A DNA stretch of 64,000 nt from Nitrosomonas sp. (lineage in GTDB: Bacteria > Pseudomonadota > Gammaproteobacteria > Burkholderiales > Nitrosomonadaceae): contig JAMWZY010000005.1 of assembly GCA_024281825.1 (NCBI GenBank), positions 146,723 to 210,722 on the forward strand. Reading direction: 5' to 3'. Numbering within the stretch: position 1 is the stretch's first letter; every line of letters starts with the position of its first letter. Position numbers and translations under genes: made by a program. Under the pieces are notes generated by a model that worked only from the letters and a program-made list of their open reading frames with translations, searched no databases and was not told where the DNA came from. This document shows positions 41,280 to 64,000 of this stretch, one piece after another.

Positions 41280-41356
<77 letters not shown>

Positions 41357-41363
41357 ATAAATC

Positions 41364-41396
41364 AAGAGGTTAGAGTGTTTCTCTAACCTCTTTTTT
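41364..41396 (+). terminator. Strong hairpin terminator at the tRNA/integrase junction
   Basis: AAGAGGTTAGAG (41364-41375) pairs perfectly with CTCTAACCTCTT (41381-41392) around TGTTT, followed by TTTT. It is oriented to end the rpoD-tRNA transcript. The left arm also contains the stop codon of the leftward integrase gene (41370-41372), so the last codon and the terminator belong to the junction region. Confidence 0.85.
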
Positions 41397-44469: not shown

Positions 44470-44838
44470 ATGATTGACAAAAAGAACCCCAAGACAATCA
44501 AAAAAGAAAGAAGAGATAAGAAGCTCAGGGTTCCTGTCTTGCCAATCGAGGAAGCTGAAATAAAGAGTAAAGCAATGGATGCCGGATTGCCCGTTGCCGA
44601 GTACCTGCGCAATCTGGGCCTGGGTTATCAGGTGCCCAGTGTTATAGATAACCGGAAAGTGGATGCTTTGTTAAAAATAAACGCGGATCTTGGCAGGCTG
44701 GGTGGATTAATCAAGCTCTGGCTTACCAACGACAAGCGTACAAAATTGATTGGCAAGTCACAATTGCATTTAACCTTGGACAGTATCCGGAATACCCAGA
44801 GCACGATGCTGGATGTCATTATTAAGCTTAAAAAATAA
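44470..44838 (+). CDS. traJ: TraJ-like relaxosome protein
   Basis: The 122-residue protein has a ribbon-helix-helix-like part: LRVPVLPIEEAEIKSKAMDA and LPVAEYLRNLGLG (about 17-52). A later GRLGGLIKLWL (about 76-86) is shared by MobC/TraJ accessory proteins. RP4 TraJ (123 residues) binds the inverted repeat beside nic and recruits the relaxase. It is the first rightward gene from oriT, 41 bp ahead of traI. Confidence 0.85.
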   Translation: MIDKKNPKTIKKERRDKKLRVPVLPIEEAEIKSKAMDAGLPVAEYLRNLGLGYQVPSVIDNRKVDALLKINADLGRLGGLIKLWLTNDKRTKLIGKSQLHLTLDSIRNTQSTMLDVIIKLKK

Positions 44839-44878
44839 CTTCCGGAATAGTCATATTTACTTAAGCAGCTTAAATACG

Positions 44879-46513: not shown

Positions 46514-48357
46514 TGAATAACAACAATCTGAGTTCTAAATACAGTAGAAATATTACAAAAGACACACTTATCGTCCGGCTATTGTCCTTTGTGTGTCTTG
46601 TTGGCGGATTCCAAGTGGCCACCCAGTATTTTGCGCAACAGTTCAATTATCAGCCGCAATTAGGCGCACACCTTTTTCATATTTATGAACCCTGGGCAAT
46701 TCTGCTATGGGCAAATAAATGGTATCCCCAATATTCAGGCATCATTGATCTGGCGGCAGGTTTCGGCATTTTATTTTCCAGTATCGGTTTGATTCTGGTA
46801 CTGGTCATTAAAATGGTGTTGGCCAATTCATCCCGAACCAATCAGGGATTGCATGGCTCAGCCAGATGGGCAGATAAGCAGGACATTGTGGCCGCAGGAC
46901 TACTGGCAACAGGAAAGAATAACAAGAATAACCAGAGCGACGCCGTTTATGTCGGCGGCTGGCGGGATAATTCCGGCAAAACCCACTATCTGAAACACAA
47001 CGGCCCGGAACATGTGCTGTGTTACGCCCCAACTCGCTCAGGCAAGGGTGTGAGTCTCGTCATCCCTACTCTGCTTTCCTGGACTCAGAGTGCAGTCATA
47101 ACTGATCTCAAAGGTGAGTTATGGGCACTCACTTCCGGTTGGAGAAAGCATCATGCCAAAAACAAGGTGCTGCGTTTTGATCCGGCATCAACAAACAGCG
47201 CACATTGGAATCCGCTGGATGAAATCCAGATTGGCAGCGGTACGGAAGTGGCCGATGTTCAAAACCTGACCACCTTAATCGTTGACCCGGATGGCAAGGG
47301 ATTACAAACCCATTGGCAGAAAACCAGCCAGGCACTGCTGGTGGGTGTCATTTTGCATGTTCTGTACAAATCGCAGCGCGAAGGAACCCCCGCCACCCTA
47401 TCGACAGTCGACTCAATGCTATCTGACCCTGATCGTGATATCAGGGAGCTTTGGATGGAAATGGCCATGCAGGATTATCTGGATGGCAAAAGTCACCCAG
47501 TGATTGCAGCGAGTGCGCGCGACATGCTGGATCGCCCGGAGGAAGAGGCAGGTTCCGTGTTGTCGACGGCCAAATCGTATTTGTCCTTGTATCGCGATCC
47601 GATAGTTGCCAACAATATCAGCACATCGGATTTTACAATCCGCGACCTCATGCACCATGAGAGTCCAGTCAGTTTGTATATTGTGTCGCATCCCAATGAC
47701 AAATCCCGGTTGCGTCCTTTAATCCGTATTCTGATCAATATGATCGTCAGAAAGCTGGCCGATAGAATCACGTTTAAAGGCGGCCAACCCAGCGCGCATT
47801 ACAAACACAAGCTGCTATTAATGCTGGATGAATTTCCAAGCTTAGGAAAACTGGAAATCTTTCAGGAATCCCTCGCGTTTATCGCAGGCTACGGCATGAA
47901 AGCCTATTTGATCTGTCAGGACTTGAATCAGCTCAAAAGCCGTGAGACCGGCTACGGACATGATGAAGCGATTACTTCCAATTGTCATATCCAGACCGCA
48001 TTTGCACCCAACCGGATTGAAACAGCGGAACACTTATCCAAACTGACCGGACAGACAACAGTCATCAAGGAGCAGATTACCACCAGTGGCCGCCGGTCAT
48101 CGATGATGCATGGACATGTCACCCGTACCCTCCAGGAGACGCAGCGGGCGTTATTAACGCCGGATGAGTGTATGCGATTGCCCGGCCCCATGAAAGATGC
48201 TGAAGGCAGGATCACCAAACCAGGCGACATGATTATTTATGTAGCCGGTTTCCCCGCGATCTATGGCACGCAACCTTTGTACTTTCAGGATGAAACCTTT
48301 ACCGCACGGGCACAAGTAAATCCTCCGAGCTTTAGCGATAAATTAACCGGACTGTGA
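46513..48357 (+). CDS. traG: TraG/VirD4-type coupling protein
   Basis: This 614-residue inner-membrane ATPase delivers the relaxosome to the secretion channel. Two N-terminal membrane segments lie near 20-40 and 77-103. The Walker A motif is YAPTRSGKGVSLVIPTLLS (171-189) and the Walker B LLLMLDEFPSLGKLE with Asp439/Glu440. It follows traI with overlapping termini. A coupling protein in the element means only the mating channel needs to be supplied from elsewhere. Confidence 0.95.
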   Translation: MNNNNLSSKYSRNITKDTLIVRLLSFVCLVGGFQVATQYFAQQFNYQPQLGAHLFHIYEPWAILLWANKWYPQYSGIIDLAAGFGILFSSIGLILVLVIKMVLANSSRTNQGLHGSARWADKQDIVAAGLLATGKNNKNNQSDAVYVGGWRDNSGKTHYLKHNGPEHVLCYAPTRSGKGVSLVIPTLLSWTQSAVITDLKGELWALTSGWRKHHAKNKVLRFDPASTNSAHWNPLDEIQIGSGTEVADVQNLTTLIVDPDGKGLQTHWQKTSQALLVGVILHVLYKSQREGTPATLSTVDSMLSDPDRDIRELWMEMAMQDYLDGKSHPVIAASARDMLDRPEEEAGSVLSTAKSYLSLYRDPIVANNISTSDFTIRDLMHHESPVSLYIVSHPNDKSRLRPLIRILINMIVRKLADRITFKGGQPSAHYKHKLLLMLDEFPSLGKLEIFQESLAFIAGYGMKAYLICQDLNQLKSRETGYGHDEAITSNCHIQTAFAPNRIETAEHLSKLTGQTTVIKEQITTSGRRSSMMHGHVTRTLQETQRALLTPDECMRLPGPMKDAEGRITKPGDMIIYVAGFPAIYGTQPLYFQDETFTARAQVNPPSFSDKLTGL

Positions 48358-48926
48358 GATACCCCGAACACATGAAAGCCAACTTCATGAAAAAACCAAT
48401 CAAAATCCTAACTGTTTCTGTTCTGGCAGTGAGCGTTAGCCTATTTTTGCTGAGTATCGGTGCAAAAATCAGCGGGATTTATATCAATACCACACCAAGT
48501 TTGCCAGTGGGTTTCTACAAAGTGGTTGATGAACCGATTGCAAGCGGCGCTTATGTTGCTTTCTGCCCACCGAAAAATGAGGTTTTTGATATGGCTATGG
48601 ATAGATTCTACATCAATCAAGGCAATTGCCCTGGCGGTTATGGCTTGCTGCTGAAACGGGTGTTTGCACAATCCGGAGATACAGTTTCCATCGATCAGGC
48701 TGGCATCTTTGTGAATGGCGAACATTTACCCAACAGCGCTCAATTAACAGCCGATGCTGAAGGTCATGCATTGCCGCAATACCGGCTTCAAGCGGTACTA
48801 GATGATTCTGAATACCTACTGCTATCCGATTTAAACCCCCAATCCTTCGATGCGCGCTATTTCGGACTGATTGCGCGTGATCAGATTAAACAGGTTGTCC
48901 GTCCAGTTTTTACCTGGAGTCATTAA
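48354..48926 (+). CDS. traF: TraF-like S26 signal peptidase (conjugal transfer)
   Basis: RP4 TraF cyclises and trims the pilin TrbC. This 190-residue protein has an N-terminal membrane helix, the catalytic Ser in TTPSLPVGFYKV (near 44) and Lys in LLLKRVFAQSGD (near 101). An extra Cys-containing loop CPPKNEVF...NCPGGYG is typical. The GTG at 48354 overlaps the traG stop; ATG codons at 48372 and 48387 are alternatives. Retention of a pilin maturase without visible trb genes suggests either trb genes beyond the window or partial loss. Confidence 0.86.
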   Translation: MRYPEHMKANFMKKPIKILTVSVLAVSVSLFLLSIGAKISGIYINTTPSLPVGFYKVVDEPIASGAYVAFCPPKNEVFDMAMDRFYINQGNCPGGYGLLLKRVFAQSGDTVSIDQAGIFVNGEHLPNSAQLTADAEGHALPQYRLQAVLDDSEYLLLSDLNPQSFDARYFGLIARDQIKQVVRPVFTWSH

Positions 48927-48951: not shown

Positions 48952-49170
48952 ATGCATAGACCACCGATTGATGCTGAAACCGATAATCCTGACATAACAG
49001 AAATCATTCAGGAAAAGCTACTCGATGCAGAAATACCGGGTTTCCAAGCTGAATTTGATCCCTTAGAAGCTGAAAGGTTGGGTGCATTCAAAGAAGATGC
49101 TTTGAGTGAGGAAGATGCACTGGATAGCACGATTGATTATGTAGTGGAGGTTGTCGATGAAAGAGGCTAA
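48952..49170 (+). CDS. Small acidic protein of unknown function
   Basis: This 72-residue protein is strikingly acidic: about 22 Asp/Glu against 5 Lys/Arg. It has no signal peptide, no cysteine and no recognised motif. A good AGGAG precedes its ATG and its end overlaps the next gene by 14 bp, so it appears to be genuinely translated. It could be a transfer accessory (TraD position in RP4) or a DNA-mimic-like protein beside an antirestriction gene. I do not recognise it. Confidence 0.6.
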
Positions 49171-51997
49171 GAAGGCTTTTCATGAACAAGTCGCCGAGAA
49201 TCTGATTGAGCAACTCAAAAAAGGTGTTGCGCCCTGGCAAAAGCCGTGGGAACCCGGTGATCTGCTTGCCGTATTACCGGTCAATCCCACAACGGGTAAG
49301 CGCTATCGGGGAATTAACAGTCTGAATCTGATGAGCCGCGCGTATACGGATCCGCGTTGGTTGACGTACAAGCAAGCGATAAGCCTGGGCGCACAGGTGC
49401 GTAAAGGTGAAAAAAGCACTCTGGTGCAATACTGGAAATTTACCGAGGAGCAGATCAAAAAAGACGATAGCGGGAATCCAGTAATCAATGGGGAAGGACA
49501 GCCCATTAAAGAACAGATAAGACTTGAGCGTCCCAGAGTGTTTTATGCCTCCGTATTTAATGCTGAGCAGATGGATAATCTGCCAAAACTCAGCATTAAA
49601 GCTCCCGACTGGGACCCGCTGGAGCGGGCAGAACGCATATTACAAGCATCCCATGCCGTAATCCATCATGGCGAGGCTGATCGCGCATTTTATCGGCCAT
49701 CAACCGACAGTATCCACTTGCCACACAAACACCAGTTTCCAACCCCCGATCGTTACTACGCAACCGCACTGCATGAACTGGGCCACTGGACAGGTCATGA
49801 ATTGCGCTTAAACCGTGATCTCGCGCATCCATTCGGCAGCGAGGGTTATGGCCGCGAAGAACTACGCGCCGAGATTGCCAGCATGCTGCTCAGCGGTGAG
49901 CTGGGGATTGGTCATGATCCGGGGCAGCATGTGGCTTATGTGAGTTCATGGATCAAAGCGCTGCAGGAAGACCCAACAGAAATATTTCGTGCTGCTGCTG
50001 ATGCGGAAAAAATCCAGGATTATGTGCTGGCATTGTCACAACAACACGAAATGGCACAGGAAGTTGACGCAGAGGAGGCAATCAAGATGGATCAAATCAA
50101 GCAAAACAACGCCAGCTATTTACACAATATCTCACCTGATCTGGCCACCATCGCATCTCGCAATATCAAACGGTTTCATGATCTGACACAAGCTATGCCA
50201 AAAAAGGATCAGGATGCCATCATTTTGGTTGCCGAAGCACTCAAATTTTTAAGAAATGGTGGCATTGATAATCTGGAATTTGAAGAAGTATCTTCAGACA
50301 AACTAGGCTTTAGCATTCCGGCTGACTGGAATGGTCAGTTACAAATTCAGGCTAACGTAATTCAAATCGATGAAAATGGTAATGAGTCTATAGTATCCGC
50401 TAATCTACTGAATCGTGAGCCGCAATTCTGGGGCGTGACTATGCAGCGTGATGATCAGACTTTCCAATGGGTGAAAGACTGTGAATCCAAGCAAGAAGCG
50501 CAAGATTTAACGGATCTGCTCGCACTCATCGATGTCGCTGCAGAAAAGAATGAACATGAAAAGGCCGTCAAGCTTGCCAACATCCATCAAAACCGCATTC
50601 GAAATGATCCAATTAGCACTGGAGTATCGATATCAAGAGCCAAGACCGAGCAACACGATGACAATGCTCGTCAATATTTGATTGTTCCTTATACGGAAAA
50701 AGATTTGGCAAAGGCTGCAGGAGCTCGTTGGGACAAAAAGGCCCGTGCCTGGTATGTAGGGTCAGAAGCGGATATTCAAACATTGCAGCGTTGGCTGCCG
50801 GAGAATGTTTCCAGGCAGCAGGAACCGGCTATCGATCCTCACGTGGAATTTGCTGATTTGCTGCGCGCTCAAGGTTGCCGGGTTGATGGCAATCATCCGG
50901 TGATGGATGGCAGCAAACATAGAATTAAAGTGGAAGGTGACAAATCCGGTGAGAAATCTGGTTTTTATGTGGCGCATCTGGATGGTCATTCTGCCGGATA
51001 TTTTAAGAATAATCGAACCGGTATAGAGACTCGCTGGAAGGCTAAGGGGTATTCGTTAACGGATGCACAAAAAGCAGAACTGGTAACGCAGGCTGCTATC
51101 AAGCAGCAAAACAGAAAAGCCGAACAACAGGCACAGCAAAATAAGGTTGCTGATGCAATTCAACAATTGCTGACTATTGCACCTGCTGCCGACTCCGAAC
51201 ATCCTTATCTGAAAGACAAGCATGCCCGGCCAGGTGATCTGAGAATTGTGCCGCAGAATGCGGGTGAATTATCCAATGATTCAATCATCAAAATTGGTCA
51301 GAACTGGCAGGAAGTGAAGCGACTGCGTGAAGAAAATCCAGACTGCATTGTACTGACAGCCGGTGATTTATTGCTGGCCGCACAAGATATTCATGGACAA
51401 ATCTGGAGTGTGCAAACGATACAGGCTGGTGGAGCAAAGCTTTTTGCAGCGGGGAGCAGAAAGGAGAATAACTTTCATGTGGCGGGTAATGCAGGTCAGG
51501 GATTGGATGCAGCAATTAACAAATTACCTGCCATTGTAATTGCTGAAGGTTATGCCACCGCAGATACATTATCCCAGGCGCTGAATTATCCTGTCATCGC
51601 CGCATTTGATTCGGGCAATTTGCCCAAAGTCACGCAGGATTTACATCATAAATACCCGCACAAGCCAATCGTTATCGCAGGCGACGATGATCATCACCTG
51701 GAATCCACCCTTGGCAAAAACCCCGGCAAGGAAAAAGCGCTGGAAGCAGCGGCATTGGTAAATGGTGTAGCGGTATTTCCGGTTTTTGCACCGGGTGAGC
51801 AGGACTCAAAGAAATTAAATGATTTTAATGATCTGGCCAATAAAAGCGTGCTGGGTATTGAGGCCATAAAACGTCAGGTCGGATCGGTTGTTGAAAAAAT
51901 ATCTCAGCAGGCTAAACAGGGCAGCTTATTGAAGTTACAAGGCCCTGTTGAGCCCAAGCAGCAGGAAATCAGGCAAAAACGGGCATTGGTCAGGTAA
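49157..51997 (+). CDS. ArdC antirestriction / TraC-primase-like polydomain protein
   Basis: The ATG at 49157 gives 946 residues. Residues 1-130 form an ArdC N-terminal ssDNA-binding domain ([21 protein letters not shown]). A zincin-like peptidase follows with [12 protein letters not shown] (His206, Glu207, His210). A DUF5710-like block ([20 protein letters not shown]) lies near 510. The C-terminal third is Toprim-like ([17 protein letters not shown] near 795; DSGNLPKV) as in plasmid TraC primases. ArdC protects incoming single-stranded DNA from restriction; the primase part would start second-strand synthesis. The fusion couples both jobs for arrival in a new host. Confidence 0.85.
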
Positions 51998-52017: not shown

Positions 52018-53133
52018 ATGCGCGATAATATGCTGAAGATTCCAGGAACCCCATCCAATTCTGATGAAGGTGATCTTTATGAAAAAATTGAGACTCGTCC
52101 CGGTACTACCGAAAAGCAAAAAGAAGCAGGAAGAGGTGCCTATACAGAACTGCTCGAATCTTATGCTCGATGGGCAGGTGGTACCTTATTGGGTTGTGAT
52201 TTCCCGAAAGACTTCCGAGAAAAAGGAGGAACCGCCTTCCTGAATCAGCGCATCAAGTCAGGCCATGATCTGGCAGTGATGGCGCAAATACTGCGCGATC
52301 CGCGTTATGAGACGCTGAGAATCTTCTATACCCGTATGAATCGCATTATTCATCATACGGCTGTGAGTTCCAGATTGCCGGGTGCAGTCTATCTGGAAAA
52401 GATTGGACATACTAAACATGATCTGGGTGTTTTGGTAGAAAAGACTAGGCGACATGTTAAAGCCGATGGGTACTGGTTATTGCATAATCATCCATCGGGT
52501 AATGCTACGCCATCGAGTCAGGATATCAGGCTCACAGAAATACTTGCATCAACTGTTCCGAGTTTCAAAGGCCATGTCGTTATCAATACCAGTCAATACA
52601 GTGTCATTGATAAAGACGGTCATGTCGATTTTGTGGATTGGATGGGCGATCAGGCAGGAGGTTATCAGAATAACCATTACAAAAGTCATGAGCTGCTTTT
52701 GGAGAAAATAGCCTCACCGGAGGATCTGGCAAAGATAGGCCATGCTTTAAAAAAGCGAGATCAGTTTTTTAACTTGATAGGACTTAGCGCAACAGGTTTT
52801 GTATTATCGTTAAGTGAATTACCCTTATCGGTACTTGATCGTCCTCAAAATCTGCTACTGGTACGACTACAAAATTTTGCACGTAATTCTGGCGTCAATA
52901 CCGTATTTGCCATCACGAATGCCAATGATTACAGACACCCGGTATTATCCAAAGGCTGTGAAGTTGGCATACTAAAAGATGTGCTAACCGTAGAGGACTC
53001 TGATTATCGTTCATTGCGAGAAGAAGGGTTATTTGCATCAATGCCCGGTGAAATAAGCGCCATTTTTAGGAAGCCAAGAGCCTTTGTGAAGGAAGATGGC
53101 GGATTGGGCAAACGCAAAAGTCGTACACGCTGA
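52018..53133 (+). CDS. RadC-like JAB-domain protein
   Basis: The 371-residue protein has two parts. A central JAB/MPN metalloprotease-like domain carries the RadC motif HNHPSGNATPSSQDIRLTEI (about 159-178). The C-terminal 150 residues have no recognised domain. RadC-like genes are frequent on mobile elements and have been linked to DNA repair or antirestriction without firm proof. It lies 20 bp behind the ArdC-like gene and is likely cotranscribed. Confidence 0.8.
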   Translation: MRDNMLKIPGTPSNSDEGDLYEKIETRPGTTEKQKEAGRGAYTELLESYARWAGGTLLGCDFPKDFREKGGTAFLNQRIKSGHDLAVMAQILRDPRYETLRIFYTRMNRIIHHTAVSSRLPGAVYLEKIGHTKHDLGVLVEKTRRHVKADGYWLLHNHPSGNATPSSQDIRLTEILASTVPSFKGHVVINTSQYSVIDKDGHVDFVDWMGDQAGGYQNNHYKSHELLLEKIASPEDLAKIGHALKKRDQFFNLIGLSATGFVLSLSELPLSVLDRPQNLLLVRLQNFARNSGVNTVFAITNANDYRHPVLSKGCEVGILKDVLTVEDSDYRSLREEGLFASMPGEISAIFRKPRAFVKEDGGLGKRKSRTR

Positions 53134-53163: not shown

Positions 53164-53192
53164 ATGTTATAGTGATCTTTATATAATAACAT
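53164..53192. promoter_or_regulatory. Operator-like inverted repeat before hipBA
   Basis: ATGTTAT (53164-53170) and ATAACAT (53186-53192) are exact inverted copies 15 bp apart. TATAAT (53182-53187) sits inside. Position directly before the hipB-like gene suggests autoregulation, as known for HipB. Confidence 0.6.
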
Positions 53193-53211
53193 GTGTACTG
53201 CAGTATTCATT

Positions 53212-53514
53212 ATGTCTGTCAGATCATTTCGTGTTGAACAAGTCCTGAAGAAACTCGGTGGTGACATCCGTGACGCAAGAAAGCGTCGGGGAATTACTGT
53301 GCAATTGATGGCCGAGCGCATGGGCGTGACACGGGTAACAGTTGCAAAAATTGAACGTGGTGAGCCTAATACCAGTATGGGCAATTACGCGATGGCGTTA
53401 TACATCCTTGGTAAAGCCGATGAACTCGAAATGCTGATGGATCGTACCCACGATTCTCTGGGTCTGGATCTGATGGATGAGAAACTACCCAAACGGGTCA
53501 GGGTTTCTAAATGA
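53212..53514 (+). CDS. hipB: HipB-like antitoxin, Xre-family regulator
   Basis: The ATG at 53212 gives 100 residues (an earlier in-frame ATG at 53191 lies within the operator). The HTH_3 domain covers about 17-70: IRDARKRRGITVQLMAERMG then VTRVTVAKIERGEPNTSMG. Its stop overlaps the hipA start by four bases (ATGA). HipB neutralises HipA and represses the operon; the inverted repeat upstream fits that. Confidence 0.85.
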   Translation: MSVRSFRVEQVLKKLGGDIRDARKRRGITVQLMAERMGVTRVTVAKIERGEPNTSMGNYAMALYILGKADELEMLMDRTHDSLGLDLMDEKLPKRVRVSK

Positions 53515-54761
53515 GTGATACGCACCTGCTTGTCTCATTGGATTGGCAAGGGCAGTTACATCGCATTGGTCACCTGGAGATTCATAAAAGCCGTGGCAGG
53601 GAAAATTACCGCTTTATCTATGAACGCTCCTGGATCAAACACCCCAATCGCTTTGCCATTGACCCGGAACTCCCCTTACTGATTGATATGCCGTATTTGA
53701 GCAACCGCTTATGGGGTGCTTTCCAAGATATTTCACCGGATCGTTGGGGCAGATTGGTTCAGACACGCGCAACAGGTATTTTTTTAAGTGACAGTGACTA
53801 TATGTTGGGTGTTAGTGATTACATGCGCATGGGTGGACTTCGCTTAAGTCATAGTCATGCGCCAGACGTGTTTCTTGCAGAACATACAAATATCCCCAAG
53901 TTGATTCATATGCGACAACTTGAAACCGCAGCCAGACATTTTGAGAGCGGTACTGAGACCGCCGCTGATCTTGCCATGCTTGCGCAGCCTGGTTCATCGC
54001 TTGGCGGAGCGCGACCTAAAGCGGCGATTGAAGATGCCGGTGAACTCTGGATTGCCAAGTTTTCTTCACAGAACGATACCGAACGAGTCAGTTTGTGGGA
54101 AGCCGTTATGCTTGATCTTGCACAACAAGCCGGAATTGAGATAGCAGCATTCAGGGTTTTAAATGCAAAGAGTGATTCGCCGGTTCTGCTGGTCAAGCGA
54201 TTTGATCGTGAGAAAACACTGCGTACCCCTTTTATGTCTGCCATGACACTATTAGGACGCAATGAAGATACCAAGGAGGGCGCGAGTTACCTGGAAATTG
54301 CCGATGCCATTAATCGTGAATCTGCGCAGCCTGCACAAGATCGCCTGGAATTATGGCGGCGCATGACATTCAACGCCATGACCGGCAATATTGATGATCA
54401 TCTACGCAATCATGGTTTTTTGCGCGCACTCCAAGGATGGCGGCTGGCACCTGCCTATGATTTAAACCCGACAACACAGCCTTTTAACCAACGAGTGCAT
54501 CAACTGGCATTTAACCAAAGCGTTAAGCCATCATTAGATACTTGTCTGGAGCTGGCAGACTATTTTGCATTAAATCAGTCAGTAACCGATCTTGCATTAC
54601 AAAAGATCGGGAAAAGTCTGGGTAATTGGCAACTGACCGCAAAACGTCATCAATTGCGCAACGATGAAATCAAACGTATGGCACCATCCTTTGAGCATGA
54701 AGATAGTCAACGGCTAATTGCAATAGCCACAAAAACAATTTCACGTTCACGTAGTAGCTAA
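53511..54761 (+). CDS. hipA: HipA-family serine/threonine kinase toxin
   Basis: The 416-residue kinase has the HipA N-terminal domain and the Gly/Ser-rich loop GSSLGGARPKA (161-171), comparable to the loop that carries Ser150 in Escherichia coli HipA. The ATP-anchoring Lys is in LWIAKF (Lys183) and the catalytic motif is NIDDHLRNHG (about 293-302), followed by PAYDLNP. Escherichia coli HipA phosphorylates GltX and induces persistence. Here it probably serves element maintenance; the target is unknown. Confidence 0.9.
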   Translation: MSDTHLLVSLDWQGQLHRIGHLEIHKSRGRENYRFIYERSWIKHPNRFAIDPELPLLIDMPYLSNRLWGAFQDISPDRWGRLVQTRATGIFLSDSDYMLGVSDYMRMGGLRLSHSHAPDVFLAEHTNIPKLIHMRQLETAARHFESGTETAADLAMLAQPGSSLGGARPKAAIEDAGELWIAKFSSQNDTERVSLWEAVMLDLAQQAGIEIAAFRVLNAKSDSPVLLVKRFDREKTLRTPFMSAMTLLGRNEDTKEGASYLEIADAINRESAQPAQDRLELWRRMTFNAMTGNIDDHLRNHGFLRALQGWRLAPAYDLNPTTQPFNQRVHQLAFNQSVKPSLDTCLELADYFALNQSVTDLALQKIGKSLGNWQLTAKRHQLRNDEIKRMAPSFEHEDSQRLIAIATKTISRSRSS

Positions 54762-54774
54762 TGGCCGGGTTATT

Positions 54775-55212
54775 ATGTGCGGCGGTATTGAATACCAAGA
54801 TCAGAAGATTTACTTTCCGCAACCTGATGCCAGGCTTCCTGTAATGCTGCGACATGGCGGTGTTACCTGGATCATCTGGGGTAGACGAAAGGAAGAGGCG
54901 ATAGGTAAATTTCCAAACGGCGGATGGGCACGACTTGATTCCATCAAAGCAGGAAAATGGAAGCCGTGGCATCCAAGACCGGTATTAATTCCTGTTGAAA
55001 GCTTTATGGAAAAAGACCATGACAAACAATCCCATTGGATCACTCTGGCACCCGACATCGCTATACAGGCATTACCTGCTGAAAGGGATGGTGAACAAAG
55101 AATCTACGTAGTTACTGAAGAAACGCCACCTGAATACCACGGGATTCATGGTCGTTGGCCAAGATTGCGCAGATTCTCGGAGCCAGAATCGGTACTATCA
55201 TCCAATACTTGA
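54775..55212 (+). CDS. Short SRAP/YedK-like protein (abasic-site crosslinker candidate)
   Basis: This 145-residue protein starts MCGG, so after Met removal Cys2 is the N-terminal nucleophile, as in SRAP/HMCES proteins. Other elements of the fold are WIIWGRRKEE (about 32), GGWARLDSIKAGKW (49-62), a PVESFMEKDH block with Glu, and IHGRWPRL, which may replace the family's His-Arg-Met-Pro motif. It is shorter than YedK (222). SRAP proteins form covalent crosslinks with abasic sites in ssDNA. It lies 13 bp after hipA and 85 bp before umuD. A second copy begins at 63912. Confidence 0.62.
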   Translation: MCGGIEYQDQKIYFPQPDARLPVMLRHGGVTWIIWGRRKEEAIGKFPNGGWARLDSIKAGKWKPWHPRPVLIPVESFMEKDHDKQSHWITLAPDIAIQALPAERDGEQRIYVVTEETPPEYHGIHGRWPRLRRFSEPESVLSSNT

Positions 55213-55253
55213 TATAGACTCTTTTAGCATATTTGACATCGGTGTGGTCGGTG

Positions 55254-55282
55254 TGTTTGAATGCTGTTTCATATATCAAACA
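55254..55282. promoter_or_regulatory. Operator-like inverted repeat before umuD
   Basis: TGTTTGA (55254-55260) and TCAAACA (55276-55282) are exact inverted copies separated by 15 bp. A partial LexA-like match (CTG, ten bases, CAA; 55264-55279) lies inside. The start of umuD follows at 55298. SOS control is plausible but not demonstrated. Confidence 0.55.
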
Positions 55283-55297
55283 TGGAGTGATTCAGAC

Positions 55298-55903
55298 ATG
55301 TCAAATCGTGGCGGGAAAAGAGAGAATGCAGGCAGACCGCGCGGTCAGGGTAAATATGGCGAACCGACAACCACAATGCGTATACCCGAGAGTCAGGGAG
55401 CTACCATCAAAAACTTTCTGGATGCCTACCAGCGTAAAAGAACAGACTCCGATAGTGAAGCAACCAACGTGGATGAGTTTTTTATTCCCGTAATTAGCGA
55501 TCAACCGACCTTGTTACCGCTTTTTTCCACCAAAGTAGCGGCAGGTTTCCCCAGTCCGGCAGATGATCATGTCGAGAAAAGCCTCGATGTCAGTGAATTT
55601 CTGATCGATCATGCCGCATCGACGTTCTTCGTTACGATCAAGGGAGATTCGATGATTGATGTCGGTTTGCTGCCGGGTGATAAAGTGGTGGTGGATCGCT
55701 CCAAAACGCCCGGTATCGGCGACATTGTGCTGGCGGTGGTGGATCGGGAATTTACCATCAAAATCCTGGATCACGGCGCGAACAAAATGCCACGGCTGCT
55801 GCCTGCCAATTCAACAGGCGCTTACAAACCTATTTATATCCGCCCTGATACGCAGTTTGAGATATTTGGCGTTGTGATAGGATCGTTCCGCCGGTTTAAA
55901 TGA
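55298..55903 (+). CDS. umuD: UmuD-like S24 autoprotease with N-terminal extension
   Basis: The ATG at 55298 gives 201 residues, about 60 more than Escherichia coli UmuD. The extension starts with the basic MSNRGGKRENAGRPRGQGKY. The self-cleavage site is Ala82-Gly83 (KVAAGFPSPA), with catalytic Ser118 (KGDSMID) and Lys155 (EFTIK). Spacing cleavage-Ser (36) and Ser-Lys (37) equals that of Escherichia coli UmuD, so it should be RecA-activated. An upstream in-frame start at 55148 would overlap the SRAP gene and is unlikely. It overlaps the next gene by four bases. Confidence 0.9.
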   Translation: MSNRGGKRENAGRPRGQGKYGEPTTTMRIPESQGATIKNFLDAYQRKRTDSDSEATNVDEFFIPVISDQPTLLPLFSTKVAAGFPSPADDHVEKSLDVSEFLIDHAASTFFVTIKGDSMIDVGLLPGDKVVVDRSKTPGIGDIVLAVVDREFTIKILDHGANKMPRLLPANSTGAYKPIYIRPDTQFEIFGVVIGSFRRFK

Positions 55904-57297
55904 GCACGCTGTTACCGTGTTATGTGCTGCTGGATCTGGAAACAACGGGAGCCACGCCAACTCAGGATCGCATCACTGAAATCGGCTTGATTCGCTATGA
56001 AAACGGTATCGAAGTTGGCCGCTGGAATACGCTCATCAATCCGGAAGTCAGCATCTCACCTTTCATTCAGCGACTGACGGGAATCACTCAGGACATGGTC
56101 GACCATGCGCCTACTTTCGCGCAAGTGTGTGAAACACTGCTGCAATGGCTCGATCAAGCGGTATTGTGCGCGCACAATGTACGTTTCGATTATGGTTTTC
56201 TCAAAAACGAATTCAAGCGCATCGGCATTACCTTCCAAAAGAAACTGCTCTGCACGGTCAAACTTTCCCGAAAACTCTATCCGCAGCATCATTCACATAG
56301 CCTCAACGCCATCATCGAAAGATTTCAGCTGATCTGTACCCAGCGCCACCGCGCCATGGGCGATACCGAAATGATGGCGGCATTCATTGATGTCGCAATC
56401 CGTGAATTCGGAGAATCAACCGTCCAGGAAACCGTAAAAACACTGTTGAAGCAGCAAGCGACCCCAACGGGGCTTGATCACCTGGATATCCATACCATCC
56501 CGGAAACCTGCGGTGTTTATTTATTCCATGGCGATAGCGCATTGCTGTATGTCGGTAAAAGCATTTCATTGCGCTCCCGGGTATTCAACCACTTCCAGGG
56601 CGATCATCGTTCCGCCAAAGAAATGCGCATTGCCCAGGAAATCAAACGAGTCGAATACCGCATCACCAGCGGGGAACTGGGCGCACTGTTACTGGAATCG
56701 CGCCTGATCAAGGAATACCAGCCCATCCATAACCGGCAACTCAGACGCGAGCGGCAACTCTGTGCCTGGCAAGTATCGAATGACCCCAATGCCAAACCGT
56801 TGGTGACTTTGATCAATGATAGCGACATTGATTGGCGTACCGCAGACAATGTCTATGGCACTTTCAAAACCAAACGGCAGGCTGTCGAGGTTTTAAACAA
56901 GCTGGCCGACGAATACGGGTTGTGCGATAAGGCATTGGGATTGGAAAAGGGCGCTGGTGTGTGTTTCGCACATCAATTAAAAAACTGCCAAGGTTTGTGC
57001 GCTGGTTTGGAATCCGCAGAGTCACACTGGCTGCGCCTGCTCACAGCTTTGAGTCATTACAAACTACTGGCATGGCCGTATGCTGGTCGTATTGGCATCA
57101 GGGAACACAACCCGGACTATGACATCACGGAAATACACGTCTTTGACCAATGGTGCCATCTGGGAAGTGTCAAGGATCATCAGGAATTGGCGGAATTATC
57201 AACACACTCGTGTTTTGACCGGGATACCTACCGCTATCTGCTTAAATTCCTGAACCGCAAAGAGGTCGAAGTGATCGTATTGCATGGATCAGCATAA
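55900..57297 (+). CDS. Fused DEDDh exonuclease (DnaQ-like) and GIY-YIG nuclease with UvrC-like cysteines
   Basis: Residues 1-180 form a 3'-5' exonuclease domain: Asp12/Glu14 (LLDLETTG), Asp97 (HNVRFDYGF), His150 and Asp155 ([10 protein letters not shown]). Residues about 200-285 are a GIY-YIG domain: GVYLF (205-209), YVGK (217-220), Arg225 and Glu266 (LESRLIKEY). A tail carries Cys342, Cys355, Cys363 and Cys367, spaced C-x12-C-x7-C-x3-C; UvrC has C-x11-C-x7-C-x3-C for its Fe-S cluster. Mycobacterial relatives share the exonuclease-GIY-YIG fusion. It overlaps both umuD and umuC, so the three are translated together. Confidence 0.9.
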
Positions 57298-58576
57298 CCG
57301 TTCCATCGCGTTAATTGACGTCAACAACTTCTATGTCAGTTGTGAACGGGTATTCAATCCCAAACTGGAAGACAGGCCGGTTGTCGTATTATCCAATAAT
57401 GACGGCTGTGCAGTCGCGAGAAGTAACGAAGTGAAAGCGCTGGGCGTCAAAATGGGGCAACCGTGGTTTCAGCTGCAAGACTTGGCCAGAAAGCACGGAA
57501 TCATTGCTTATTCATCCAACTATGCGCTTTATGCCGACATGAGCAATCGCGTCATGAGCATTTTAGGTATGTTCAGCCCAGAGCAGGAAATCTACTCGAT
57601 TGATGAATGCTTTCTTGATTTCACCGGATTCAAAAGACACAGTCATACCGGTTATGGGCAGAAAATCCGAAAACGCATCAAAAAGTGGACGGGATTACCG
57701 GTGTGTGTTGGCATAGGCCCGACCAAGACACTAGCTAAACTCGCTAACCATATGGCCAAGAAGAATCCGGAATTCGAGGGTGTGTGTGATATCAATAGCC
57801 TATCACTCGAACAGCAAGCGGAGTGGTTCAGAAAAATAGAAGTAGGGGAGATCTGGGGTATCGGCAGGCGGCTAGCACCCAAGCTGCACGAAATCGGCAT
57901 CAGAACCGTGCTGGATCTCCAAACAGCATCGCCATCGCAACTGCGCGCCCGTTTCTCGGTTGTGATGGAAAAGATCATTCGTGAAATTAATGGCACGGCC
58001 TGTATCGAACTGGAAGAAATCAATCCACCCAAAAAACAGATCGTCAGTTCCCGATCCTTTGGTATCCCGGTATCCGATCTAGCCAGTCTGGAAGAATCGG
58101 TTTCTCTCTATATCAGTCGCGCCGCTGAAAAACTGCGACGACAACAATCGTATGCCGGATCGGTGCACGTTAGCATCCGCACCAGTCCGTTCAATCAAAA
58201 AGAACCGTATTATGCCAACGGCATGACGATTGCACTGCCAAGACAAACGGACGATACGAGATTGCTGACCAAGGTCGCATTGTGGGGATTACGCAGAATT
58301 TACCGCCGCGGCTACCAATATCAGAAAGCAGGCGTGATGCTGTCTGAACTGGTACCTAGGCAATACCGGCAACTGGATCTCTTCGGTTCGGTATCAGCAG
58401 CAGATAATCAATCCAGCAAGTTGATGAGTGTCATGGATCAAATCAATGCTCGTATGGGTCGAGGCACTTTAAAACTTGCATCCGAGGGATTCAAGCAACC
58501 TTGGAAGATGAAACAGGGAAATAAAAGTCCAAACTACACCACAAATTGGGATGAATTGATTTGTGTTACGAAATGA
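57284..58576 (+). CDS. umuC: Y-family DNA polymerase V catalytic subunit UmuC
   Basis: The 430-residue polymerase starts with the palm signature [18 protein letters not shown] (about 9-26). The catalytic Asp-Glu lies in [13 protein letters not shown] near 105-117, and [20 protein letters not shown] near 139-158. The C-terminal part has the UmuC-specific little finger and tail (QLDLFGSV, a candidate beta-clamp motif). UmuC with cleaved UmuD makes polymerase V for translesion synthesis. It overlaps the exonuclease-GIY-YIG gene by 14 bp. Confidence 0.95.
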
Positions 58577-59564: not shown

Positions 59565-62285
59565 CTAAAACAGAAAATCACTAGCGGTCATGGTGTGGAG
59601 ACCGACTAGTTCGATTTGAATGTTGGGAACACCGTTGCCGTCAGTATCAAGACCGATGATGGTGTTGCCGGCGACTTGTGCATAGTTCACTTGATTGGCC
59701 GCAGTGAATGCAGATTTCCCTATGAAGGTGAAGGTTCCGGCAAAATCAGCGAGGTCAATTTTATCTGTGCCATTCACAAAATCTGTTATTAAGTCACGGG
59801 TAGCGGCGGTAATTCCAGAATCCCACCCGGTACTAGTAGGGCCGCTATATTTAAATACATCCTCACCCGCTCCACCAGTCAGCTTATCGGCACCGTGCCT
59901 GCCATATAAAGTGTTATTTTCTGAATTGCCGACAATGGTATCTGCCCAATTGGTGGCCATAACACCCTCAATGCCGGAAAGTATATCGCCATAGGCGTAG
60001 CTGTAAGTTCCGCCCTCTTGCCAGGTGGTGAGTGCTAAATTAACCTCTACACCAGACATAGAAGAGGAGTAATCAACGATATCAAATCCAGCGTCCCCAA
60101 ATATTTTCTGAGCACCGCGGCCACTATAGATGCGGTCATTGCCACTGCCGCCATGCACTATATCTAAACCTCCATTTGTCACTATGACATCATCACCCAG
60201 CCCGCCATTCAATGAGTCCGTATTGCTACTGCCACTGATATAATCGTTGCCAGCACCACCATCGATCGTGCTTGAATAGTAATAGACATAGATTTTGTCA
60301 TTGCCACCCAGTCCGGAAATAATATTCGGCCCACCAGCTATATTGAGAAAATCATCCTTTTCCGTGCCGGTATAAGTTTTAGCTACACCGCTGGAGTGAA
60401 GAATTCCGGGAACGGTGATGCCGATATTGGTGGTGTCAAACCAAACACCGTTGGAGGTCGTGAAAAATTCTTTGACCCCCATACTTGTTTTGCCATCAGG
60501 CGAAGTAATTTCTAAGTAATAACCGCTTTGCCACAGCTTGAAACCGAGGAGGGAATATTCGCCGTTCCCCTTGTAGGTTGCCGTACCTTGCAATGTCGTG
60601 CCGTTAAAGACGATGCGGTCGCCCTGCTGGCGGTCATATATCGTATCCCAGTCATCACCATTGTTGATGATGAACCTGTCAATATCCGTACCACCTCTGA
60701 GAGCGTCATTGCCTTTGCCGCCCAACAATATGTCTTTGCCAGCATTACCAGTCAGGCTGTCATTGCTATCGTAGCCCAGCATCAAATCCTTTCCGCTTGA
60801 GCCAGTAATACCATCAGCACCAAGGCTGCCCACAAATAAATTAGCTTTGCCGGTTGATGGTGTCTCGGTAAAGGAAACAGTGCTGCCACGGCTGGCAGTT
60901 GCCAGAATCACATCCTCAAATATACTTTTAGAGCTGCTTCCCCATAGTTCCTGCATGACAGAATTAACCGTGATTCCAGAAGAGTGTCTGCCAGCAAATA
61001 TGTTATTGAACAGTTCAGTACGCCCAGAAATATCAGAGATTGTTCCCCATAATTTATTGCCAAAGTCGATATCCAGAGCGTTGCCAGAAAGTTTCAGTAC
61101 GCCGTCAACAGCTGTTGGCGAAGCACTTTGCAAAACCTTATCAATCGCCAGCTTGCCCGCGAACTGCACAAAAATATTTGATACGGAAGCGGCTAAGTCA
61201 TTTATAAGGGATGGAGCTGGATTTGCCTTTAAAACCTTTCCCCACTCATTGGCATCATTGAACAGCGCACGGATGCCAGTATCGCCGAATACTCTTGTTC
61301 CCTCATCAATGGCTGAGTAGGCAATAGCTGTCTGCATGATGCCCGCATAGTCTTTGTCGGTAAGCATTGTTCCAGTAACTTTGCCTGCGCCGGCTTTTAA
61401 GCCAACATTGTTGTCATAGAGGGATGGAATGAAATATTTAGCTGCATCTCTCCAATCTTGCGTAGGTAAAGGATTGGCGAACATTCTTATAACCAAAGTA
61501 GCCATGCTGTGCAGCTTATAGGCATCGATGGCTAGCGGAAGGTCAACATTATTACCCAAATCATAACCAACCTGCAGCGTGGTTTGAGCATCACGGTTAT
61601 GAAGCACAGACTCCATAAACTCACCTTTAAGATAAACAGTATTCAAACCGGTTCTCTTTATTGCCCAAGGTATAGCTGTTCCGTAAATATCGGCTTTCAG
61701 AGCATTGGCATCAGCCAAGGCAGAGCTATAGCCAAATCCCAATATAGATTGATTGGCAGCATATAGTGTCGGGTTGGACGCGGCAAATGCTGCTGTGGAG
61801 GAGGCATTTTCAAAAGCCATGTTGTCAAATAATGTACCGGACTTGCCATACAGTGAACCTACATACCCTGCCAGCCCGCCACCTAGTGAATGACCTGTCA
61901 GAGAAATATTTGCTTTTCCGGGGTCAATACCATCGCCAGCTACTGCTTTGTAGAATGCAATCGCAAGCTTGGCTTGTGGATTATTTGGGTCACCACCACC
62001 AGTTGCATACCCACGCAATAAATCACTGCCCGTATCTCCCCACGGATTAACAAAATTAGCATCAGTTCCACGGTATGAAATTATGGTTGAACCATTATAT
62101 TTGTAGGCGATGGCATAGAAGCCTTGGGCTTTTGCTTCTGCAACATCTTCTATTGTGTAAGAAATGGTGGCATTTCCGATTTTAGTCTCGATGGCATCAG
62201 AAAGTTCAACAATACCTCTATCATAGCCGCGATTATAAGAATCCATCGCCAATATGGCTTTAAATAACTCGACATTAATTGCCAT
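59565..62285 (-). CDS. RTX lipase (class 3 lipase with calcium-binding repeats)
   Basis: The 906-residue protein has an alpha/beta-hydrolase lipase domain in the first 300 residues. Its nucleophile motif is SLTGHSLGGGLAG (Ser133), with ISYRGTD as oxyanion strand near 69-75. From about 490 to 830 there are several GGxGxDxLx-type repeats (GKGNDALRGGTD, GGAGNDYISG, GSGNDRIYSG, GGAGEDVFKYSG). The C-terminal 75 residues have the DLITDFVNGTDKIDLADF block of type I secretion tails. No signal peptide is present. No exporter is nearby. A broken gene lies directly upstream. Confidence 0.92.
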   Translation of the reverse strand: MAINVELFKAILAMDSYNRGYDRGIVELSDAIETKIGNATISYTIEDVAEAKAQGFYAIAYKYNGSTIISYRGTDANFVNPWGDTGSDLLRGYATGGGDPNNPQAKLAIAFYKAVAGDGIDPGKANISLTGHSLGGGLAGYVGSLYGKSGTLFDNMAFENASSTAAFAASNPTLYAANQSILGFGYSSALADANALKADIYGTAIPWAIKRTGLNTVYLKGEFMESVLHNRDAQTTLQVGYDLGNNVDLPLAIDAYKLHSMATLVIRMFANPLPTQDWRDAAKYFIPSLYDNNVGLKAGAGKVTGTMLTDKDYAGIMQTAIAYSAIDEGTRVFGDTGIRALFNDANEWGKVLKANPAPSLINDLAASVSNIFVQFAGKLAIDKVLQSASPTAVDGVLKLSGNALDIDFGNKLWGTISDISGRTELFNNIFAGRHSSGITVNSVMQELWGSSSKSIFEDVILATASRGSTVSFTETPSTGKANLFVGSLGADGITGSSGKDLMLGYDSNDSLTGNAGKDILLGGKGNDALRGGTDIDRFIINNGDDWDTIYDRQQGDRIVFNGTTLQGTATYKGNGEYSLLGFKLWQSGYYLEITSPDGKTSMGVKEFFTTSNGVWFDTTNIGITVPGILHSSGVAKTYTGTEKDDFLNIAGGPNIISGLGGNDKIYVYYYSSTIDGGAGNDYISGSSNTDSLNGGLGDDVIVTNGGLDIVHGGSGNDRIYSGRGAQKIFGDAGFDIVDYSSSMSGVEVNLALTTWQEGGTYSYAYGDILSGIEGVMATNWADTIVGNSENNTLYGRHGADKLTGGAGEDVFKYSGPTSTGWDSGITAATRDLITDFVNGTDKIDLADFAGTFTFIGKSAFTAANQVNYAQVAGNTIIGLDTDGNGVPNIQIELVGLHTMTASDFLF

Positions 62286-63173: not shown

Positions 63174-63554
63174 ATGATCGTTTACAAGACACGATGGTTT
63201 GATCGTTGGGCAAACAAACAAGGATTAACCTCGCCCAATCTTTGTGCCGCTGTGCGTGAGATGACTGAGGGGCTGTATGACGCCGACCTCGGCAATGGGC
63301 TGCTGAAAAAACGAATTGCGCGACCAGGCCAAGGAAAGAGAGGCGGCTTTCGCACATTGGTCGCCACCAATAAAGGAAACCGTTGGATATTCTTATTTGG
63401 CTTCCCAAAGAACGAGCGTAGCAACATTGACAAAGATGAAGAGGTGGCCCTAAAGCTGTTGGCTGTTCACCTACTGTCACTGACAGCACAGGCGCTCGAT
63501 CAAGCACAACATGCGGGAGAATTAATGGAGGTTAATTGCGATGCGCAAGACTAA
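63174..63554 (+). CDS. RelE/HigB-like type II toxin
   Basis: The 126-residue basic protein starts MIVYKTRWFDRWANKQGLTS. It has the pattern of RelE/HigB-like mRNA interferases: IARPGQGKRGGFRTLVATN and WIFLFGFPKNERSNI (about 46-87). This resembles the HigB/RelE-like toxins with the toxin gene first. It overlaps the downstream antitoxin gene by 14 bp. Confidence 0.82.
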   Translation: MIVYKTRWFDRWANKQGLTSPNLCAAVREMTEGLYDADLGNGLLKKRIARPGQGKRGGFRTLVATNKGNRWIFLFGFPKNERSNIDKDEEVALKLLAVHLLSLTAQALDQAQHAGELMEVNCDAQD

Positions 63555-63855
63555 ATCAACCATTCTTGAGGCTGTACATGACACGGCCAAGAGTTTACAC
63601 AAGGCCGGCGTGTTGGATCAGGTTACGCTGCGCGAATTCGATCGATTGTGTTTGCCGCCTATTGAACCGTTGGGACCAGAGCAGATAAAACAAATTCGCG
63701 AAGCTACACGAGTTAGTCAGGCGGTGTTTGCTGCCATACTAAATACAAGTGTTTCGACAGTACAAAAATGGGAGATCGGACAGAAACGGCCAACAGGTGC
63801 TGCTCTTAAGTTGCTACATCTTGTGCAAAAGCGCGGTCTGGAAGCTGTCATCTGA
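63541..63855 (+). CDS. HigA-like antitoxin (Xre family)
   Basis: The 104-residue protein has a helix-turn-helix in its second half: EQIKQIREATRVSQAVFAAI and LNTSVSTVQKWEIGQKRPTG (about 45-85). The N-terminal half presumably binds the toxin. The toxin-first order and 14-bp overlap are typical of HigBA. It stabilises the element or resists deletion of this region. Confidence 0.85.
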   Translation: MRKTKSTILEAVHDTAKSLHKAGVLDQVTLREFDRLCLPPIEPLGPEQIKQIREATRVSQAVFAAILNTSVSTVQKWEIGQKRPTGAALKLLHLVQKRGLEAVI

Positions 63856-63911: not shown

Positions 63912-64000
63912 ATGTGTGGTGATATTGAATATCAGGGTGAAAAGATATATTTCCCGCAACCGGGTGCGCGGTTGCCGGTGCGTTTGCGAGATGGCAGAGT
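63912..64000 (+). CDS. Second SRAP/YedK-like gene, cut by window edge
   Basis: The visible 29 codons begin MCGDIEYQGEKIYFPQPGAR and continue LPVRLRDGRV. They align with the start of the protein at 54775 (MCGGIEYQDQKIYFPQPDAR) with only a few differences, and the Cys2 nucleophile is kept. The gene starts 56 bp after the HigA-like gene. The rest is outside the window. Confidence 0.65.
   Translation, partial: MCGDIEYQGEKIYFPQPGARLPVRLRDGR

Follow-up and report, generated by a model that had tools for sequence, protein, structure and literature searches.

The locus described here stands closest to two known systems, the umuDC operon of DNA polymerase V (Pol V; UmuD'2C) and UmuDAb, the UmuD-type repressor of Acinetobacter. 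As given in the available text of PMC11332147, the UmuDAb operator is TTGA(N4)GTWAC(N4)TCAA, and the umuDAb gene of A. baylyi is considered to derive from a damaged umuDC operon. SRAP genes beside umuDC were already known, according to the accessible portion of PMC3765255, and an SRAP-like group was linked with UmuC-like polymerases in the part of the NAR 2026 survey (PMC12926913) at hand. We analysed a stretch of 64,000 nucleotides (the window) forming the terminal part of a contig in a Nitrosomonas genome of 2.57 Mb (99.9% complete), the end of the window being the end of the contig. It carries, on an RP4-type element, a compact SRAP-like gene, umuD, a gene for a fusion of a DEDDh exonuclease with a Cho-like GIY-YIG nuclease (hereafter FUS), and umuC; this four-gene order, proposed in an earlier note on this DNA, was borne out by the list of open reading frames (ORFs) and by profile matches. 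With moderate confidence, we read umuD-FUS-umuC on this element as a self-repressed mobile SOS mutagenesis operon that includes a lesion-processing nuclease. The observations behind this reading are gene order, conservation, active-site residues, an operator-like palindrome, the lack of a LexA match over the cut-off, and umuD genes without umuC.

The three genes follow one another on the forward strand, with umuD at positions 55298-55903, FUS at 55900-57297 and umuC at 57284-58576 (all coordinates are those of the window), and the overlaps of 4 bp (umuD/FUS) and 14 bp (FUS/umuC) reported earlier were confirmed. The start of umuD was placed at 55298, and not at the upstream ATG of a longer ORF, because the alignments of its relatives begin there. 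UmuD scored above the cut-offs of Peptidase_S24 and PRK10276 and has a long N-terminal region, an A82-G83 cleavage site and an S118/K155 dyad; A82-G83, S118 and K155 were invariant among 15 aligned UmuD proteins. UmuC, the Y-family polymerase V subunit, matched NF002955 (PRK03609) with 495.9 bits against a cut-off of 431 and carries DUF4113 at its C-terminus. As judged from sequence, the cleavage site and Ser-Lys dyad of UmuD and the family score of UmuC identify the locus as a Pol V operon.

In the 465-residue FUS protein, residues 9-161 were assigned to a DEDDh exonuclease (RNase_T) and residues 197-462 to a Cho-like region with GIY-YIG (Pfam). The best NCBIfam match was NF005906 (PRK07883-type; 275.9 bits, under the cut-off of 495), and the Cho equivalog NF007833 scored 239.6 bits, under its cut-off of 367; the second half appears Cho-like and is not filed as Cho. 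Residue conservation was read from an alignment of 104 FUS proteins, the window included. The exonuclease residues D12, E14, D97 and H150 were kept in all 104 and D155 in 103, and the GIY-YIG residues G205 (104), Y207 (103), Y217 (100), G219 (104), R227 (101), E266 (103) and N278 (102) were retained almost as strictly. Four cysteines were conserved in 103 or 104 of the proteins, a pattern that presumably resembles that of UvrC, in which comparable cysteines are tied to an iron-sulphur cluster. The ratio of nonsynonymous to synonymous substitution rates (dN/dS) was 0.04-0.09 against six relatives, while two more pairs gave no value. By its residues FUS has both active sites intact, and these ratios point to purifying selection.

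FUS matches were found in 44 of 125 genomes of the family (E ≤ 1e-20). The close form (76-100% identity) occurred in 21 genomes of the window's genus, counted as one locus per genome with the window included. In these, umuD lay directly upstream of FUS in all 21 and umuC directly downstream in 15, and the 4-bp overlap of umuD and FUS was present in 19, the window among them. Six loci lacked an adjoining umuC. At three of them (L015, L026 and L028) the gene was not found within the available stretch, and at L025 it is partly deleted. At L012/L281, 2.4 kb of DNA interrupt umuC about 16 codons into the gene, and at L014/L282 it is displaced by 0.7 kb; umuD and FUS are intact at both. Five other genomes of the genus held only a distant FUS (43-45% identity) with no umuDC adjoining, and one held a Cho-like gene only. 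In the family's other FUS-bearing genus, possibly Nitrosospira, the nine first-listed loci had no umuDC beside FUS, and a second FUS copy at L277 was divergent from umuDC.

The arrangement also recurred elsewhere. At L209/L274, outside the family, the gene order was umuC-FUS-umuD, and at L250/L273, also outside, it was umuC-FUS with umuD not found nearby. In Methylotenera, the contig L168 carries an SRAP-like gene divergent from umuD, followed by FUS and, about 0.4 kb further on, umuC; on a second contig of this genus (L167), other genes stand between umuD and FUS. The umu-linked forms occupied four separate places in the FUS tree, namely a Nitrosomonas clade of 18 (support 1.0), Methylotenera L168, L209 and L273. 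The window FUS is 97% identical to that of L011 and 82% to that of L022, the corresponding values for UmuD being 87% and 95%; since the identities of the two proteins run opposite, FUS seems to have been swapped between such operons. A FUS relative (46% identity) was also seen at one end of a contig from a viral collection (L070), with phage-like neighbours by eye; this may be host DNA beside a prophage.

The 85-bp gap between the stop codon of the SRAP-like gene and the start of umuD contains the putative umuD promoter. A TTGACA, resembling a -35 element, lies at 55233-55238 (forward strand), and a putative operator TTGA-N5-GTTTC-N5-TCAA at 55257-55279 (forward strand) was recognized by pattern search and by comparison with the UmuDAb operator. 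In a set of 47 exact-sequence-unique 75-base stretches upstream of umuD (UmuD identity of at least 65%), TTGACA was present in 42 and TTGAAT in 45, and a palindrome TTGA-N5-GTNWC-N5-TCAA spans the -10 region. Searched on both strands, 24 of the 47 had the strict form (19 when one strand alone was counted), 10 had one mismatch and 13 had four or five. As a random control, 18 of 4,700 75-base pieces from the same loci reached one mismatch or fewer. In the loci retrieved, which are partly redundant and total 2,195,014 bases, the strict palindrome occurred 56 times, in all 56 cases no more than 60 bp before the start of a umuD gene. Perfect sites number two in the window genome, one at the umuD of the operon and one at a solo umuD on the chromosome, which is flanked by hflX- and yebC-like genes (names assigned by eye). 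With up to one mismatch, sites in this genome numbered 34 + 31, versus 12 + 14 for a reversed control pattern, symmetric sites being counted on both strands. The exact UmuDAb form of the operator occurred nowhere in the window or in the loci fetched at that stage. The umuD promoters of two Nitrosomonas genomes (L028 and L029) showed a palindrome of another kind, TTATTGTNACAA, whose core is GTNAC. In Methylotenera (L166-L168), one of the same type separates the divergent SRAP-like gene from umuD or umuC, and L168 has another right at the umuC start.

The window contains no LexA box of the form CTGT-N8-ACAG. In the window genome, no LexA scored over the cut-off and the two S24 matches were both UmuD. 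LexA over the cut-off was found in none of the 125 genomes of the family versus 86 of 150 genomes of the order; 6 of 14 search controls scored over it. A diverged LexA is possible in some family members, because weaker LexA-like proteins, with nearly full coverage and scores under the cut-off, are present in them. In the family's other FUS-bearing genus, a LexA-like gene (about 104-106 bits, under the cut-off) directly follows FUS at L032/L279, and at G107:C41 (by coordinates) such a gene follows a FUS that is split into two pieces.

Genes for UmuD were also found without umuC. We hand-picked 20 umuD loci from the family list, mostly not seen with FUS and including the second umuD of the window genome, and a complete umuC was missing beside umuD in 16 of them. 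Remnants of FUS followed umuD at L320, L327, L328 and, by eye, L317, and remnants of umuC at L312 and L329. The 15 solo umuD genes that were checked were all open and kept the catalytic serine motif, with the cleavage motif AG(F/L)PSP in 14 and AGIPSP in one; dN/dS between solo genes was 0.05-0.12 (six pairs). No UmuC match at E ≤ 1e-40 was obtained in 6 of the 20 genomes with umuD, of which four were 99-100% complete and two 83-88%. Because solo umuD genes are intact, under purifying selection and present in genomes lacking a UmuC match, UmuD seems to have a use without UmuC, repression being the obvious candidate.

In the mechanism that we propose, UmuD would, as long as there is no damage, act on the palindrome that covers the -10 region and so repress the operon to which it belongs. 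Once damage occurs, it would cleave itself at A82-G83 on RecA filaments, an event that would free the promoter and also supply UmuD' for Pol V. The Cho-like half of FUS would nick beside the lesion, the DEDDh half would trim in the 3'-5' direction from the nick, and Pol V would then refill or bypass. The SRAP-like gene would be part of the preceding transcription unit and an optional companion of the operon; its product may cap abasic sites. We infer binding of UmuD to DNA from operator conservation, genome content and analogy, and the nick, trim and refill steps from general properties of the protein families; RecA-triggered cleavage, the biochemistry of FUS and its cooperation with UmuC would have the same standing.

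A broader picture, which we put forward tentatively, combines the parallel with Acinetobacter, operon decay and excise-and-refill. Nitrosomonas would have no canonical LexA, and its SOS-type mutagenesis would be run by UmuD. Decay of umuD-FUS-umuC operons, with umuD and its operator staying intact, would have given rise, parallel to events in Acinetobacter, to many copies of a UmuD-type repressor, and the mobile operon's own switch would obey, and could interfere with, the resident solo UmuD. The exonuclease-Cho protein would turn Pol V into part of an excise-and-refill machine. If these proposals are true, mobile elements would spread mutagenesis operons with their own damage switch, so that mutability could be acquired without a host LexA. 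There would also be a second lineage with UmuD as SOS repressor, in which the intermediates, operons decaying to solo umuD, are visible. Pol V would moreover gain a dedicated nuclease partner, giving a model of coupled excision and error-prone refilling.

Two groups of observations weigh against the reading of umuD-FUS-umuC as a self-repressed operon with its own nuclease, the first of which concerns the tie between FUS and Pol V. FUS was broken at 2 of the 21 close-form loci (L025 and L030), and L080 holds a close umuDC relative (UmuD 91%, UmuC 93% identity) without FUS; because such close relatives exist, FUS is dispensable for Pol V. A wider sample, of the class, gave FUS matches in 31 of 369 genomes (E ≤ 1e-30), and one of the order in 170 of 399 (E ≤ 1e-60); both contain some family members. 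Neighbours were sought by tblastn with the window umuD and umuC (E ≤ 1e-3, flanks of about 1.5 kb) at 66 loci outside the family, which were 21 plus 45, the latter comprising 25 and 20 hand-picked among the 170 matching order genomes. This count omits Cho-only and exonuclease-type partial matches (L212-L219) and one family locus (L237), and five of the 66 stretches were shortened by contig ends. The umuC gene adjoined FUS at 2 of the 66 loci, and no umuD or umuC neighbour was detected at the other 64; the rough chance expectation was below 0.1 of 66 loci, taking about two umuC-like genes among 3,500.

It is quite possible that FUS is an independent SOS-regulated repair nuclease, which shares the umuD promoter for co-induction and does no physical or stepwise work with Pol V. 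The 64 unlinked loci and the persistence of umuDC operons without FUS fit this explanation, as does a COG0847 GIY-YIG exonuclease of Bacteroidetes, for which the available text of PMC8565304 predicts control by SOS-type motifs and gives no place in umuDC. It is opposed by the middle position and 4-bp overlap kept at 19 of 21 loci and by the umu-linked FUS in four places of the tree, once in the order umuC-FUS-umuD (L209/L274). Since FUS is linked at 21 of 21 close-form loci and in three further tree places, yet unlinked at 64 of the 66 outside loci, its link with Pol V, as far as gene content can tell, is real but optional. The earlier note had proposed counting this order across genomes. It recurred within the genus and in separate FUS lineages; outside the family the genes were mostly separate. 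The functional link, which the note had let depend on the order being neither rare nor accidental and on the middle gene not usually standing apart from umuDC, was thus half upheld, as FUS is usually apart from umuDC but linked to it beyond chance.

The second group of observations concerns repression. Of the 13 divergent umuD promoters, two carry another palindrome, and 11 keep TTGAAT but have, by eye, the remainder of the pattern shortened or shifted; part of the conservation of TTGAAT may reflect a role as -10 element. Relative to Acinetobacter, each spacer of the operator-like site has one extra base, and the core in the window is GTTTC, not GTWAC. A wider palindrome regulon was not found, because 20 of the 21 one-mismatch loci checked (L291-L311, a part of those listed, the match of L291 being out of register) lay within ORFs. 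The predicted structure of UmuD had a mean pLDDT of 39.4, too low to read the N-terminal fold. An alternative that we judge unlikely is that UmuD is a polymerase subunit only, that a non-S24 regulator binds the palindrome, and that solo umuD genes owe their persistence to something else. In its favour, no DNA-binding fold could be read from the UmuD model, and to our knowledge UmuD of E. coli is no repressor. Three findings argue the other way: umuD is intact and under purifying selection also in genomes without a UmuC match, the perfect operator sites stand at umuD promoters only, and Acinetobacter plasmid UmuDs align with the window UmuD over nearly its full length (about 40-42% identity). 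We keep self-repression by UmuD as the preferred, still conditional, account of the palindrome.

The gene upstream of the operon (54775-55212, forward strand) encodes a compact SRAP-like protein of 145 residues, so described from its predicted fold and its conservation. It had no Pfam or NCBIfam match at E ≤ 0.1. Family profiles found no solved-structure sequence at E ≤ 1, and a later search gave unrelated matches only (E ≥ 1.1). The Pfam gathering score for SRAP (PF02586) was missed, the window protein having no match and the distant relative L187 scoring 18.6 bits versus 27.1. The structure model reached a mean pLDDT of 88.9, and in a search of PDB structures ranks 1-15 were all YedK/HMCES with probability 1.00 (best E 7.1e-4). 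The TM-scores by query length were moderate (0.46-0.59), and one match had E ≤ 0.001. The model thus points to an SRAP fold, and the protein is called SRAP-like here, not filed as a PF02586 member. The catalytic residues of SRAP proteins are Cys2, Asn, Glu and His. In an alignment of the window protein with 54 relatives, E79 was invariant and C2 and H125 were present in at least 90% of the 55 sequences; W51 was invariant and stands in place of the catalytic Asn (alignment by eye), at the position that we take to be Asn75 of YedK. The alignment was built from 60 starts, from which L111 and L148 (both with an early stop), L124 (duplicate), L153, L155 and L190 were dropped.

At least 50 of the 125 family genomes carry the SRAP-like gene; they all belong to the window's genus, and many of them have multiple copies and fragments. 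A census covered 62 Nitrosomonas copies among the matches listed, the window included. Fifteen copies precede umuD, 2 precede a dinB-like gene (dinB by eye) and 45 lie elsewhere. Some of those before umuD are also among the 29 copies that sit behind another partner, namely a radC-like gene (10), hipA (9), a relE-HTH pair whose helix-turn-helix (HTH) gene is the adjoining one (6) or some other small pair of genes (4). The distance to that partner is 128 bp for one copy and 13-66 bp for the rest. As a third gene, the SRAP-like gene recurs in modules of this kind. The idea that its start holds a conserved site for DNA recombination was rejected, as codon third positions vary there and the upstream DNA differs by context (by eye). 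Five copies (L081, L061, L088, L086 and L099) have no tight upstream partner and carry a TATAAT box a few bases before the SRAP-like ATG, which suggests, by eye, that such copies give leaderless transcripts. Outside the genus, a umuD, umuC or dinB-like gene adjoined the SRAP-like gene or stood one gene further off at 7 of 17 loci inspected, in varied orientation. These 17 omit L120, L129, L137, L153 and L186 (Nitrosomonas-like or partial copies) and also L190, on a viral contig; of the scans of viral contigs for the SRAP-like gene, one found none and another found one locus. Classical SRAP genes (Pfam SRAP) were seen divergent beside FUS at L268 and beside Cho at L272, and at L277 one lies about 2 kb from FUS (by eye).

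The earlier note had suggested that all four proteins, the SRAP-like one included, form one unit acting on lesions in single-stranded DNA, for example during conjugative entry. SRAP-like genes do recur by Y-family polymerase genes, as the counts above show for umuD and dinB-like neighbours (15 and 2 of 62) and outside the genus (7 of 17), and an SRAP-like group is tied to UmuC-like polymerases in the accessible part of the NAR 2026 survey (PMC12926913). The larger share of copies, 45 of 62, lies elsewhere, 29 stand behind hipA, radC-like, relE-HTH or other small pairs, the promoter-like and operator-like sites of umuD come after the SRAP-like gene, and no tie was found between the gene set and DNA entry. 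We consider the four-protein unit distinctly unlikely. With 15 of 62 copies before umuD and umuD having its own promoter-like sites, the SRAP-like gene was also rejected as a fixed member of a four-gene operon.

The element lies beside tRNA-Met (CAT; 41280-41356, forward strand, ARAGORN), its probable integration site. The ORF of the tyrosine integrase (41370-42407, reverse strand; Phage_integrase, PF00589) ends 14 bp beyond the tRNA gene, and a gene for a ParA-like protein is grouped here with the integrase and the transfer genes. Pfam matches on the forward strand identified a TraI-like relaxase (44813-46513), a TraG coupling protein (46513-48357) and a TraF-like S26 peptidase (48354-48926), from which, together with the integrase, the element is classed as a predicted RP4-type integrative conjugative element, visible up to the contig end without its right end. 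Further forward-strand genes code for an ArdC-like protein (49151-51997; ArdcN and MPTase-PolyVal), a RadC-like JAB-domain protein (52018-53133; PF04002) and a HipB-HipA type pair (53191-54761; ORFs and Pfam), which ends 13 bp before the SRAP-like gene. Transposase-like remnants were noticed by eye 3' of umuC. On the reverse strand, 59565-62285 encodes a 906-residue protein with RTX-type calcium-binding repeats, which matched serralysin and esterase models, all under the cut-off. The beginning of a second SRAP-like copy lies at 63912-63995, directly after a RelE-HTH pair (63174-63855); the contig breaks within this copy (cf. L071), as expected for a repeated gene. A chance gathering of repair genes on the mobile element, without selected cooperation, would account for the presence of unrelated genes and the transposase-like remnants (by eye), and for umuC being interrupted or displaced in relatives. 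We hold it to be highly improbable, since order and overlap are kept across genomes, dN/dS is low, and the linkage was re-assembled independently.

In the literature searched, which covered few subscription papers, we found no paper on an exonuclease/GIY-YIG gene between umuD and umuC, none on Rv2191 with UvrC, and none joining UmuD, a repressor role and LexA in Nitrosomonadales. On LexA and SOS in Nitrosomonas, PMC3108266 names N. europaea, within the text accessible, only in legends and a reference. The operon is filed as a variant of the Pol V operon, not as a member of Cho, SRAP or UmuDAb, because the case for these falls short, by curated score or by key test.

FUS is like Cho and the N-terminal half of UvrC in keeping the GIY-YIG catalytic residues, and differs from Cho in that its nuclease half is fused behind a DEDDh exonuclease and scores below the equivalog cut-off; we take it to lack the C-terminal half of UvrC. 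With PRK07883-type DEDD exonuclease-GIY-YIG proteins (NF005906 and relatives) it shares the order of exonuclease then GIY-YIG, although it falls below their cut-off, and relatives of FUS are widespread whereas its placement between umuD and umuC is not. The SRAP-like protein resembles YedK/HMCES (PF02586) in its predicted fold, C2, the Glu and the His of an IH.RWP motif, but has 145 residues versus about 220-260 (length from the available text of PMC3765255) and no Pfam match. Compared with UmuDAb of Acinetobacter, as described in the accessible text of PMC11332147, the locus has similar TTGA/TCAA arms and a GT..C core over the promoter, and, as in Acinetobacter, where LexA is absent, no LexA over the cut-off and solo umuD genes are found; unlike UmuDAb, the site here also stands at a umuD that is part of an entire polymerase operon carried by a mobile element, and its spacers are longer by the one base noted above. 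The umuDC operon of Pol V (UmuD'2C) is matched by the A-G cleavage site and Ser-Lys dyad of UmuD, by a umuC over the cut-off and by the neighbouring position of the genes. The present operon differs from it in a window free of CTGT-N8-ACAG and in the gene for a 465-residue exonuclease-endonuclease that stands between umuD and umuC.

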